From Candidatus Omnitrophota bacterium (GTDB lineage: Bacteria > Omnitrophota > Gorgyraeia > Duberdicusellales > 4484-171): a stretch of DNA of 32,595 bases. The notes under the pieces are model-generated. The model was not told the DNA's origin. It made no database searches and saw nothing but the letters and a program-made list of their open reading frames with translations. Made by a program: the position numbers and the translations under genes. The stretch lies in assembly GCA_028692655.1 (NCBI GenBank), contig JAQUWY010000019.1:1-32595 (forward strand), in the 5' to 3' direction. Each line of letters begins with the position of its first letter. Position 1 is the stretch's first letter. Below are positions 6,841-32,462 of the stretch, piece by piece.

Positions 6841-7935
6841 ATGCACAAAGCAAAAATAGCTTTAGAAGATGGGGCTGTCTTTGAAGGAACAGCTTTTGGA
6901 GCAGGGGGTGAGAGCTTCGGAGAGATAGTTTTTAATACCGGCATGACCGGCTATCAGGAAGTATTAACCGATCCTTCTTATAAAAGCCAGATTGTTGTTA
7001 TGACTTATCCCTTATCGGGCAACTATGGCATTAATCCGGATGATAGCGAGTCGAGAAAAATATTCCTTGAGGGTTTCGTAGTCCGGGAATGCAGCCAGAT
7101 AGCCAGTAACTGGCAGGCTAAAAATACCTTGAGCCGATATCTTGAAGAAAATGGCACCATAGGAATAGAGGGGGTTGATACAAGAGCGCTTACTCTCAGG
7201 ATAAGGTCTAAAGGAGCGATGAAGGCGGTGATCTCTACTGAATGTTTGGATGATGCCGTTTTGATCGAGGCAGCCCGGGCTTCGGCAGGGATTGTGGGCA
7301 GAGATTTGGTAAGTGAAGTAACAAATCCACAAGTAAAATTTTCAGAAAAAGAAGGTAAGTACAAGGTTGTCGTCATTGATTGCGGCCTAAAATACAATAT
7401 ATTGAGAGAGCTAACCAGCAACAATTGCAGTTTTGTCACGGTACCTTCGACAATGGATAGCCGGCAGATACTTGGATATAAACCGCAAGGAGTACTTATT
7501 TCTAACGGTCCGGGAGACCCTCAGGCGTTAGGCGGTGTAATTGATACTGTGCGCCAGTTAATCGGCAGAGTTCCTCTCTTCGGTATTTGCCTGGGCCATC
7601 AAATTCTTGGTTTAGCTTTAGGAGGGAAAACTTACAAGCTTAAATTCGGACATCATGGATGCAATCATCCAGTAGAAGATTTACGCTGCAAAAAAATTTC
7701 CATAACCTCTCAAAATCACGGGTTTTGCCTGGATCCGGAATCCTTGGACAAGAACACTATCGAAATAACGCATAAAAATCTTAACGACAATACGATTGAA
7801 GGTTTTCGGCACACTAAGCAGCCTGTTTTCTCCGTTCAATTCCATCCTGAACGTTGCCCCGGGCCTAATGATGCCGGCTATCTGTTTGGAGAATTCATAC
7901 GGATGATGGAGGAATATAGAGAAGTCCACGCATAG
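6841..7935 (+). CDS. carA: Carbamoyl-phosphate synthase small (glutaminase) subunit
   Basis: 364 aa, normal length. The N-terminal CarA-specific domain (SFGEIVFNTGMTGYQEV) is followed by a class I glutamine amidotransferase domain. Its nucleophile is Cys250 in FGICLGHQ and the His-Glu pair is His335/Glu337 in SVQFHPE. It hydrolyses glutamine and channels ammonia to CarB to make carbamoyl phosphate for pyrimidines and arginine. AAAGGA lies about 9 nt upstream of the ATG. carB follows, but only after a 458-bp repeat-filled gap, so the two may be transcribed separately. Confidence 0.97.
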   Translation: MHKAKIALEDGAVFEGTAFGAGGESFGEIVFNTGMTGYQEVLTDPSYKSQIVVMTYPLSGNYGINPDDSESRKIFLEGFVVRECSQIASNWQAKNTLSRYLEENGTIGIEGVDTRALTLRIRSKGAMKAVISTECLDDAVLIEAARASAGIVGRDLVSEVTNPQVKFSEKEGKYKVVVIDCGLKYNILRELTSNNCSFVTVPSTMDSRQILGYKPQGVLISNGPGDPQALGGVIDTVRQLIGRVPLFGICLGHQILGLALGGKTYKLKFGHHGCNHPVEDLRCKKISITSQNHGFCLDPESLDKNTIEITHKNLNDNTIEGFRHTKQPVFSVQFHPERCPGPNDAGYLFGEFIRMMEEYREVHA

Positions 7936-7970
7936 CCTACAGTCTATAGACCATAGGCTATGCAGATTCA

Positions 7971-8144
7971 GGTTAAGGTTAAGATTAAGGTTGAGGTTGA
8001 GGTTGAGAAAAACTAAAAAACCAAAAGACAAAAAAACAGAAAACTAAAGAACTAAAAACAGAAAGACTGAGGAACTGAAAAACTGAAAGACCAAAAAACC
8101 GAAGAACATAAAAACTAAAAGATTGAAAAACATAAAGAATAGGG
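7971..8144 (+). repeat. Composite hexamer plus octamer array, copy A
   Basis: Six hexamers of the form GGTTAA/GGTTGA (7971-8006) are followed by a single G and then 17 units of the octamer AARRACNN (8008-8141; two units are one base short), ending in GGGAAGTTAAG. The last nine octamers, including their variable dinucleotides, closely match the end of copy B at 32323-32462 in the same order. The two copies therefore share ancestry rather than arising independently. Confidence 0.85.
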
Positions 8145-8156
8145 AAGTTAAGACCT

Positions 8157-8240
8157 TGCCTACCGGTAGGCAGGCGCAACCCTCTAACGATGAATGATAC
8201 GGCTATAGAGTAGGCTGTAAACATAACTTTCGAATAATAC
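8157..8240 (+). repeat. 84-nt dispersed repeat, copy 1
   Basis: Begins with the perfect 16-bp palindrome TGCCTACCGGTAGGCA and continues to AATAATAC. It matches 27041-27124 with two substitutions in 84 positions, about 19 kb away. It contains CTCTA and TAGAG arms that could form a second hairpin. No reading frame is conserved, so it is probably a non-coding mobile or structural repeat. Confidence 0.9.
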
Positions 8241-8317
8241 ACTCTAAGCTTTTGATGAGTTGGGGAAACTGTTGCAAGTCCCAGGTAACAAGTAGCAGGT
8301 TTTTTAAGATAATTTAA

Positions 8318-8352
8318 GACTTGAAACCTGAAACTTGCGACTTGAGACCAGA
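8318..8352 (+). repeat. Heptamer array (GACTTGA-type), five units
   Basis: Five consecutive 7-nt units: GACTTGA, AACCTGA, AACTTGC, GACTTGA, GACCAGA. The preceding bases (CAGGTTTTTTAAGATAA) resemble those before a similar array at 26862-26889, so the two look like relatives. Confidence 0.65.
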
Positions 8353-8393
8353 AGGATTTTATTTAAACAATATCCGAATATACATAATTAAGT

Positions 8394-11300
8394 ATGCCAA
8401 AAAGAACAGACATTAAGAAAATTCTTATTATTGGCTCAGGGCCGATAATCATAAGCCAGGCCTGTGAGTTTGACTATTCCGGGACTCAAGCCTGCAAGGC
8501 CTTAAAGGAAGAAGGCTATGAAGTTGTGCTGGTCAATTCTAATCCAGCAACGATTATGACCGATCCCGAGATTGCCGATGCAACTTATGTTGAGCCCATA
8601 ACCAGTCAGTTTCTGGAAAAAATCATAGCCAAGGAGCGGCCCGATGCTCTTTTACCCACGTTAGGAGGCCAGACAGGATTAAATACCGCTATGGCTTTGT
8701 TTGAAAATGGAACGCTTGAGTCTTATGGCGTAAAGATGATTGGTGCTGACTATCAGACAATAAAAAGGGCTGAAGATAGAGATGAGTTTAAAAAAACAAT
8801 CGAAAAAATAGGTTTAGACTTGCCGAAAAGTTGCCTAGCTTATAACTTTGAGCAGGCATTATCCGCTATGAAGAATTTAGGCCTGCCGGCTATTGTTAGG
8901 GCGAGCTTTACTTTAGGCGGGACCGGCGGGGGAATTGCCAGGACAAAGGAAGAGTTTGAAAAAATCGCCAGCCTGGGATTAAAAAACAGTTTAATCGGAG
9001 AAATCCTTATTGAGGAATCAATAACGGGATGGAAAGAATATGAGCTTGAACTCATGCGGGATAGAAATGATAACGTGGTGGTTATCTGTTCAATCGAAAA
9101 CGTCGATCCCATGGGGGTTCATACAGGAGACTCAATAACCGTAGCTCCGGCGCAAACGCTTACCGATAAAGAATATCAGCGTATGCGTGATGCAGCAATT
9201 GCTATTATACGGGCCATCGGGGTTGAAACCGGAGGCTCTAATATCCAATTCGCGGTTGAGCCGAAAACCGGCAGGATGGTAGTTATAGAAATGAATCCCC
9301 GGGTTTCAAGAAGCTCGGCCCTTGCTTCAAAAGCCACGGGATTTCCTATTGCCAAAATAGCGGCAAAACTTGCTGTCGGATACACGCTTTCCGAGATAAA
9401 TAACGATATTACCCTTAAGACCCCGGCTTGTTTTGAGCCGGCCATAGATTACTGCGTAGTAAAAATTCCCCGTTTTACTTTTGAGAAATTTCCCGAAGCT
9501 CAGGATGTGCTGGGTATATCTATGAAATCGGTAGGTGAGACAATGGCTATCGGCCGGACATTCCCGGAAGCATTGCAGAAGGGTTTAAGGGGCTTGGAGA
9601 TAGGCCACTGCGGATTGGATAATAAGTTAGATTTTAATTTGGTATCAGACGAAAAGATAAAACAGAGGCTTGTTGAACCTAATGCTTCAAGAATATTCTA
9701 TATTAAATACGCTTTGCAAAAAGGCTATCTGCCTGAAGAAATAGTAAAGCTTACAGGCATTGATCCCTGGTTTATATATAATATACAAAGGATAGTTGAA
9801 TTGGAACAGGAAATATCGCAGATAGGAAAAGATACACAGTTACTTCCAGGAAAAAATAATCTTTCAACCGGCCTTTTAAAAAAGGCCAAGCAATACGGTT
9901 TCAGTGATAAGCAAATCGCGGATTTAAGCAACACAAGTGAAGATGACATAAGAGATCTGCGTAAAGATAAAGGCATAGAAGCTACTTTTAAGTTAGTTGA
10001 CACATGTGCCGGAGAATTTGAAGCTTTCACGCCGTATTATTATTCCACTTATGAAACCGAAGACGAAGTAAGGGCTTCGTCCCGTAAGAAAATAATCATT
10101 TTAGGGGGCGGCCCTAACAGAATCGGCCAGGGGATAGAGTTTGATTATTGCTGCTGCCATGCCTCTTTTGCTTTAAGAGAATTAGGTTATGAAACGATAA
10201 TGGTTAATTCTAATCCCGAGACAGTTTCTACCGACTACGATACCTCGGATAAACTTTATTTTGAGCCTTTGACTTTGGAAGATGTCCTTAATATTATTGA
10301 TAAAGAAAAGCCTCAAGGAGTGATAGTCCAGTTTGGCGGCCAGACGCCGCTTAATTTGGCCCGTAAGCTGAAAAATCATGGTGTTCCGATTATAGGGACC
10401 AGTGTTGAATCTATTGAGCGGGCTGAAAACAGAGAGGAATTTGCCCGGCTGCTGAAAGAATTAAATATACCCCAGCCTTTAAACGGTTCAGCCCAGAGTC
10501 CCGCAGAGGCAGCAGACATCGCCGGGAAAATAGGTTTTCCTGTTCTCCTGAGGCCATCCTATGTTTTAGGCGGCCGCTCGATGAGGATTGTCTATGACGC
10601 AAAAGACCTACAGAAATTTGTAGATGATATCGGAGAGATTTCTGCCGACAGCCCGGTGTTGATAGATAAATTTCTGGAGGACGCGGTTGAAGTTGATGTT
10701 GATGCGGTTTCTGACGGCAACAAAACTGTGGTTGCTGGAATAATGGAGCATGTGGAAGAAGCTGGTGTTCATTCCGGAGATTCTGCTTGTGTGCTTCCTC
10801 CGCATACATTGAGCGACGAAATCCTGAAGATAATCAGAGAATATACTGTAACTTTAGCCCGCAAACTGCAGGTCAAGGGCTTGCTGAATATCCAGTTCGC
10901 GGTTAAAAAGAATATTATTTATGTCCTGGAAGCAAATCCCCGGGCTTCTCGCACCGTTCCTTTTGTGAGTAAAGCCACCGGAATTGCTTTGGCTAAAATA
11001 GCGGCTCAGGTTATGGTTGGAAGAAGCCTTGATGATGTAGGGTTTATAAGGGAGCCTTGTGTTGGGCATGTAGCAGTTAAAGAGTCTGTTCTTCCTTTTT
11101 CCCGTTTCTCAGGAGTAGATATAATACTGGGCCCGGAAATGAAATCAACCGGTGAGGTCATGGGAATAGATTCTACTTTCGGTAGGGCATTTTATAAATC
11201 GCAGGAAGCTGCGGGCCAGAAGCTTCCCCGGGAAGGAAAAGTTTTTATAAGCGTAAAAAATGAGGATAAAAGAAACATAATTTTTATTGCTAAAAAGATA

Positions 11301-18108: not shown

Positions 18109-18422
18109 ACACAGATAATATAAGTATGGGTTGCCTTGCTTAGCTAAAGCTACGAATGGCAGACAAGCTGTAAGTTGTATCAGGTAAAGGTATAGGTTTA
18201 GGTTAAGAAGAACCGAAGAACCCAAAAACATAAAAACGGAAAAACAAAACCAAAAATAACAAACCCGCATCGTCATCAAATACGGGGTCAGCCCTTGTCC
18301 GCTTCGTCCACCAAAGTTATTTAAAAATCTGGTGAGACAGGCGAGACCTCGCCACCGGCGGGAAATGTGAAATGAGTGAGTGATTATGCCTACAGTCTAT
18401 TGACCATTGACTATAAACGGTT
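18109..18422. repeat. Gene-free repeat region between moxR and the DUF58 gene (array copy C)
   Basis: Holds a degenerate hairpin (about 18129-18167, TTAGCTAAAGCTA centre), then four GGTWWA hexamers (18183-18206), a G and five octamers of the AARRACNN type (18208-18247): the same layout as arrays A and B, but shorter and more diverged. After this come a GGCGAG/CTCGCC palindrome (about 18342) and CTACAGTCTATTGACCAT, which resembles the head sequence at 7946. No gene is visible. Confidence 0.7.
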
Positions 18423-26889: not shown

Positions 26890-27040
26890 TGTATAATCCT
26901 GGAGATGTGTTTACATATTTTGTGTAAAGGCGAACGGTATACGGTTGCGTAACTCGTAAAGTTATTCGTTTGCCGGCTGCGTTAATAAAATCTTATGAAT
27001 AGAGATGATTAACGTTCAACGACAGCCGTTTGCAGCTGCC

Positions 27041-27124
27041 TGCCTACCGGTAGGCAGGCACAACCCTCTAACGATGAATGATACGGCTATAGAGCAGGCT
27101 GTAAACATAACTTTCGAATAATAC
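27041..27124 (+). repeat. 84-nt dispersed repeat, copy 2
   Basis: 82 of 84 positions equal copy 1 at 8157-8240, including the TGCCTACCGGTAGGCA palindrome. The flanks differ after AATAATAC, which fixes the 3' boundary of the repeat. Confidence 0.9.
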
Positions 27125-27183
27125 AACCCGAACTTATAACTTATCTTGTTCGGGGTTTGGTAGTATCTGGGCTTATTCAGAAC

Positions 27184-32246: not shown

Positions 32247-32256
32247 TATTAGTCCA

Positions 32257-32293
32257 CCCTTCGACTACGTTTATCCTGAGTGAAATCGAAGGG
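32257..32293 (+). repeat. REP-like inverted repeat (CCCTTCGA ... TCGAAGGG)
   Basis: Eight-bp arms enclose ACTACGTTTATCCTGAGTGAA... The CTGAG(T/C)GAA(A/G)TCGAAGGG style of palindrome is common as a dispersed extragenic repeat in environmental bacteria. Confidence 0.6.
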
Positions 32294-32322
32294 CTCAGAG
32301 CAAGCAGTCCATAGGATATGCA

Positions 32323-32462
32323 GGTTAAGGTTAAGGCTAAGGTTGAGAAAGACAGAAAAACCGAAAAACCAAAGAACCGAAAAACGGAAGAACTGAAAAA
32401 CAGAAAGACCAAAAAACCGAAGAACATAAAAACTAAAAGACTGAAAAACAGAAAGAATAGGG
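32323..32462 (+). repeat. Composite hexamer plus octamer array, copy B
   Basis: Four hexamers (GGTTAA, GGTTAA, GGCTAA, GGTTGA) are followed by a G and 14 perfectly phased octamers AARRACNN (32348-32459), then GGG and GAAGTTAAG. The 3' nine octamers match copy A in order with few changes. Because 8 and 3 share no factor, one frame stays open and shows a period of eight residues. Confidence 0.88.

Follow-up and report, generated by a model that had tools for sequence, protein, structure and literature searches.

At positions 7971-8144 of the window (the whole stretch of DNA analysed here, 32,595 nt long, which is one entire contig of a 62-contig, 1.65 Mb draft genome of a Candidatus Omnitrophota bacterium) lies a run of short units that the original prediction described as a degenerate octamer array AARRACNN with a hexamer head. 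What kind of element is such an array, where did its units come from, and how did it spread?

Architecture of the array and its two counterparts in the window

The array was confirmed as real, and four strict units in a row were found in none of 2000 mononucleotide shuffles of 7936-8393. Its details are less regular than first described: six hexamers do stand at 7971-8006, but not all of them are GGTTRA (GGTTAA twice, GATTAA once, GGTTGA three times), and seventeen units do follow a single G, but two of these are heptamers rather than octamers, with 12 of the 17 units in the 8008-8141 array fitting AARRACNN strictly. The view that each unit joins a fixed part to a free dinucleotide was borne out by the AARRACNN units, as was the view that it does not resemble a plain microsatellite or a CRISPR, there being no constant repeat with unique spacers; a CRISPR repeat would be constant over about 20-50 nt, whereas the units here are 8 nt long and their order is common to different loci. 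No Rfam family matched anywhere in the window above the gathering threshold.

The order of hexamers, G and octamers was read at each of the three places named in the original prediction (7971, 18183 and 32323), with four looser hexamers and about five octamers at the second, and four hexamers and 14 octamers, 13 of them strict AARRACNN, at the third. The copies at 8.0 and 32.3 kb end alike, both finishing with GAATAGGGAAGTTAAG, and the shared order of free dinucleotides claimed for their last nine units held in seven units and failed in two. The flanking genes in the window we take to be carA/carB and MoxR-type ATPase/DUF58. In addition to what had been predicted, we found heptamers upstream of the array, a palindrome, half of a MITE-like repeat and a ladder hairpin (8271-8341) downstream; in related genomes, moreover, the same units make up the arms of hairpins. 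The features in the window are as follows:

7940..7968, + strand: degenerate heptamer-like run (AGTCTAT AGACCAT AGGCTAT), beginning about 4 nt past the carA stop codon (sequence, module regular expression)
7971..8006, + strand: six hexamers GGTTRA, one of them GATTAA (sequence)
8007..8007, + strand: single G at the hexamer-octamer joint (sequence)
8008..8141, + strand: 17-unit octamer array AARRACNN, with two 7-mers (sequence, TRF)
8142..8157, + strand: linker GGGAAGTTAAGACCTT, common to many copies (copy comparison and alignment)
8158..8171, no strand: palindrome GCCTACCGGTAGGC at the junction of octamer cassette and MITE-like repeat (sequence, copy comparison)
8157..8241, + strand: right half of the MITE-like repeat, 98% identical to the 26890-27125 element (copy comparison)
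about 8271..8341, + strand: heptamer ladder hairpin of 5-bp CARGT/ACYTG helices and 2x2 internal loops, upstream of carB (folding, pattern search)
18183..18206, + strand: four looser hexamers heading the second array (sequence)
18208..18247, + strand: second octamer array, 5 units (sequence)
26890..27125, + strand: complete copy of the MITE-like repeat; the palindrome lies in the middle (copy comparison)
32323..32346, + strand: four hexamers before the third array (sequence)
32348..32459, + strand: third octamer array, 14 units (sequence)

Two other repeats were seen near the third array. A dispersed inverted repeat of CCTTCGACTACG...CGAAGGGCTC type occupies 32255-32300, its CCTTCGACTWCGT motif matching four times in 401 kb of the genome, and the contig end at 32595, about 140 bases past the array, carries a CCAATACTA repeat common to two other intergenic regions.

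A dispersed intergenic family

Further copies, whose absence would have spoken against the original prediction, were found across the genome, with 50 matches by BLAST with 7960-8145. The five-unit pattern matched 47 and 18 times on the two strands of the whole genome, and its reversed form once and not at all. Merging the octamer runs in 23 match-bearing stretches and the window (401,536 bases) gave 36 arrays, and the arrays at 7971, 18183 and 32323 are members of this dispersed family. None of the 36 arrays lies inside a retained open reading frame of at least 90 codons, so all are intergenic by the gene-calling rule used, under which frames shorter than 700 nt that overlapped an array had been dropped beforehand as spurious. 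Between co-directional genes, 20 arrays lie in sense and 5 in antisense orientation (p 0.004, an optimistic value because the copies are related and not independent), and such non-random orientation could reflect selection for the A-rich strand; the remaining arrays are placed between diverging genes (5), between converging genes (2) or where one neighbour is missing (4).

The modules have a fixed order: heptamers, hexamers, G, octamers, palindrome. Hexamers occur within 60 nt upstream of 27 of the 36 arrays, at least two AGTC-type heptamers within 160 nt upstream of 24, and the palindrome within 60 nt downstream of 19, and in no case was any of these modules found on the other side. The first module begins 0-26 nt past the stop codon in 12 of the 17 same-sense upstream genes, and in the other five at 35, 40, 55, 64 and 284 nt, the last value belonging to the array at 18208 because its loose hexamers escaped the pattern. 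TAAYTGA runs, of which there are five in 401 kb, are separate neighbours of some arrays.

As to the mode of spread, which had been called unknown, comparison of the copies narrows it to whole-unit gain and loss, ends that are not fixed, and junctions at a palindrome common to a second repeat. Multiple alignment of 22 cassettes from the hexamer-octamer joint, with unreliable tails left out of use, showed that they differ mainly by whole-unit gaps and a few transitions, and that some combine two octamer subfamilies as chimaeras. Among 182 copy-to-copy matches both left and right ends scatter, with recurring right ends at module joints, and the octamer cassette has neither the fixed termini nor the constant length of a MITE or transposon. 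The second repeat measures about 236 bp, is present across the genome in about a dozen nearly complete copies and carries the same palindrome in the middle of the element; three of its copies end on the right side at this palindrome, two of these three left halves (C15 and C45) likewise adjoin octamer arrays, and the sequence at 8157-8241 is the right half of this repeat, joined to the octamer cassette at the palindrome. Judged from these sequences, spread by copying, with recombination at blocks that the copies share, would be a better fit than transposition. The termini of the MITE-like repeat at 26890-27125 resemble imperfect inverted repeats, by eye only, and this repeat looks closer to a MITE or transposon than the octamer cassette does. 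In another genus, octamers AAGGACAC adjoin the same CCTGCCTACCGGCAGGCAG palindrome (L158, G246:C10).

Phage-derived sequences were also considered. The five-unit octamer pattern has matches in 19 IMG/VR stretches, in none of which this cassette was seen by eye, and a phage origin was rejected; the palindrome is present in nine IMG/VR stretches. One 36.5 kb contig (L142 and L155, IMGVR_UViG_3300001533_002010) holds 11 matches of AAGAAC-type octamer arrays; most of these are AAGAACNC, where each unit has a single free letter.

Facing hairpin arms in related genomes and a proposed origin of the units

A scan of 285 genomes from the phylum gave octamer arrays of five units in 5 of them and hexamer arrays of four units in 15; both counts include this genome, and several of the hexamer arrays are coding by eye. 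Hairpins with the units as facing arms were found for hexamers in 18 genomes (reversed control 2), for octamers in 6 (control 0) and for heptamers in 15, this genome included (control 3). The control genomes (2/285 and 3/285) show that some palindromes arise by other routes, and the 20+20 matches of the reversed heptamer control in one genome (G072) are probably another repeat family. Of 18 hexamer loci inspected, 16 are intergenic by the stricter rule, with L198 inside a frame and L186 in a frame by a looser rule, under which L185 and L189, counted among the 16, are also in an open frame; the octamer hairpins lie between genes at 7 of 10 places and in a long open frame at 3. GGYTRA matches at several loci in relatives (L163, L168, L169 and L174) are Lys-rich frames by eye, and these coding repeats were excluded as hairpin evidence. 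An identical 55-base heptamer array was found at G055:C128:3807-3861 and G017:C3:29049-29103, in genomes of different families, one of the same family as the window and the other only of the same phylum, and may represent either transfer or bin contamination.

The folds of eight octamer and five hexamer hairpins have z scores from -1.25 to -9.46. The cores of the octamer hairpins pair, whereas pairing between the free dinucleotides does not exceed chance: of the 56 free positions in 28 aligned unit pairs, 17 are complementary, against a mean of 16.3 after shuffling. The core pairing is partly imposed, since only unit pairs with a fit in both cores were retained. On the sense strand of the octamer hairpins G.U wobble exceeds A.C mismatch (35 vs 15), in 7 of 9 hairpins and the opposite in none, whereas in the hexamer hairpins wobble is not favoured (55 vs 65); we do not rely on the excess, because cytosine deamination on the sense strand would give the same bias.

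In this genome the octamer arrays are without a second arm. The array in the window is predicted to be unstructured (MFE -0.7, z 0.22), and in 28 array-bearing regions, which leave out eight of the 36 arrays, the paired fraction of array bases is 0.03-0.62 against 0.42-0.66 for the rest, a reverse hexamer arm being present in 3 of the 28. Beside the array, 8258-8355 is predicted to fold into 5-bp CARGT/ACYTG helices with 2x2 loops between them (MFE -28.9, z -2.93). The strict hairpin patterns matched once for heptamers in 401 kb of the genome, and for hexamers and octamers not at all in this genome.

Taken together, we propose, with a probability of roughly 0.55, that the array is a single member of a family of composite, non-coding cassettes between genes, which are amplified, one-armed offshoots of repeat-unit hairpins and are tolerated where they stand. 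A hairpin origin of the units is proposed because the same words are facing hairpin arms in relatives and lone arrays here, and the descent is drawn from shared units rather than from intermediates, because strict hexamer and octamer hairpins are absent from this genome. The fixed-plus-free unit would correspond to a paired block and an internal-loop position of a ladder hairpin whose arms turn over one unit at a time, and this lineage would have amplified one arm together with adjoining modules, the octamer arrays being the expanded, one-armed descendants. Slippage or unequal exchange would then lengthen and shorten the arrays, copies would spread through copying and recombination at shared blocks, and the arrays, putatively transcribed as an A-rich unstructured spacer starting mostly a few nucleotides past stop codons, may be tolerated there rather than having a dedicated function.

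A dedicated function has to be weighed against this. The arrays might be RNA or DNA landing sites where an RNA-binding protein (S1, Csp or Csr type) attaches to the core and regulates the translation or decay of transcripts from the neighbouring genes, and the sense-strand bias, a core that is conserved while the free letters are free (by position entropies, with the core positions pre-selected), the predicted A-rich single-stranded RNA and the wobble of the octamer hairpins, though not of the hexamer hairpins, would all be consistent with it. However, the conservation may be inheritance, because copies share their order by descent, and the flanking genes in the window (carA/carB; putative MoxR-type ATPase/DUF58) have no common theme. 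MacGregor proposes such a role for TAACTGA repeats in the available text of PMC4679880, but the arrays begin at stop codons and not just before start codons, unlike those of BOGUAY, and we regard a landing site as unlikely. Mobilisation by a transposase in trans, such as a Y1 (RAYT-like) enzyme encoded in this genome and acting on the palindrome, appears more doubtful again: while the genome has four Y1_Tnp (PF01797) matches, the dispersed copies are near-identical and the palindrome follows 19 of the 36 copies within 60 nt, it is missing from that range in the other 17, the cassette lacks fixed ends and constant length, and RAYT-driven spread was rejected on the absence of the palindrome from the flanks of all four Y1 transposase loci.

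A terminator reading, in which the hexamers are what is left of an intrinsic terminator or one half of it that still works, is suggested by the hexamer hairpins of relatives, which follow stop codons and in some cases run into U tracts (L180 and L177). Nothing terminator-like, with a GC-rich stem-loop and a U run, was found in 7900-8420, however, and with an octamer array predicted to be unstructured and so few regions carrying the reverse hexamer arm we hold this to be very improbable. An assembly artefact of short-read binning is barely credible, since arrays of differing length lie inside contigs between different genes and related hairpins are present in unrelated assemblies, even though the genome is a draft, the third array lies close to a contig end and repeats of this sort may cause contigs to break.

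Going on from the preferred reading of a one-armed, tolerated cassette, a wider and quite tentative possibility is that the phylum builds intercistronic RNA hairpins from a few degenerate words, each a short helix plus two letters left deliberately unpaired (5+2, 6+2), giving ladder stems with regular 2x2 loops that might be read by a protein or by the transcription machinery, one arm of which would here have been amplified into a mobile-like A-rich cassette.

Relation to known repeats

Degenerate intergenic repeats are known in cyanobacteria and giant sulfur bacteria, and there is no agreement on their origin. The facing arms in relatives, with paired cores and unpaired free letters, offer a concrete and testable structural account of fixed-plus-free units, and if only drift and recombination act, the family would be a clear case of a compact bacterial genome filling its 3' intergenic space.

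The STRR sequences of cyanobacteria are degenerate heptamer arrays between genes and in this resemble the present family, although to our knowledge this unit, the composite order and the facing-arm use are not described there. REP/RAYT systems combine a short GC-rich palindrome in many copies with Y1 transposases, all of which this genome also has; here, in contrast, the palindrome is absent around the four transposase loci tested and the octamer arrays are not palindromic. Searches of open-licence PMC papers yielded no account of this octamer, of its composite order with the other modules or of units serving as facing arms. Satellites with hexamer, heptamer and octamer units are likewise short and dispersed in prokaryote genomes, and transposition is suspected ('Satellites in the prokaryote world', PMC6749651), but the available text of that paper reports neither composite order nor free positions.

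The closest described kind is that of short degenerate intergenic repeats represented by the TAACTGA heptamers, direct repeats present in Beggiatoaceae, Cyanobacteria and Bacteroidetes, with 7-nt indels, other heptamers mixed in, a patchy distribution across phyla and a suggested part in translational control (MacGregor 2015, PMC4679880). As far as the available text of that paper goes, the two share short direct repeats between genes, many sets, mixed units, whole-unit indels, patchy taxa and a putative function; intergenic location (with frames shorter than 700 nt that overlap arrays dropped) and whole-unit length changes are found here too. The TAACTGA unit is an exact heptamer that in BOGUAY stands mostly just before start codons (PMC4679880, available text), whereas the array unit here is AARRACNN and not the exact TAACTGA, an octamer with two free letters, combined with hexamers and heptamers in a set order and placed mostly past stop codons.
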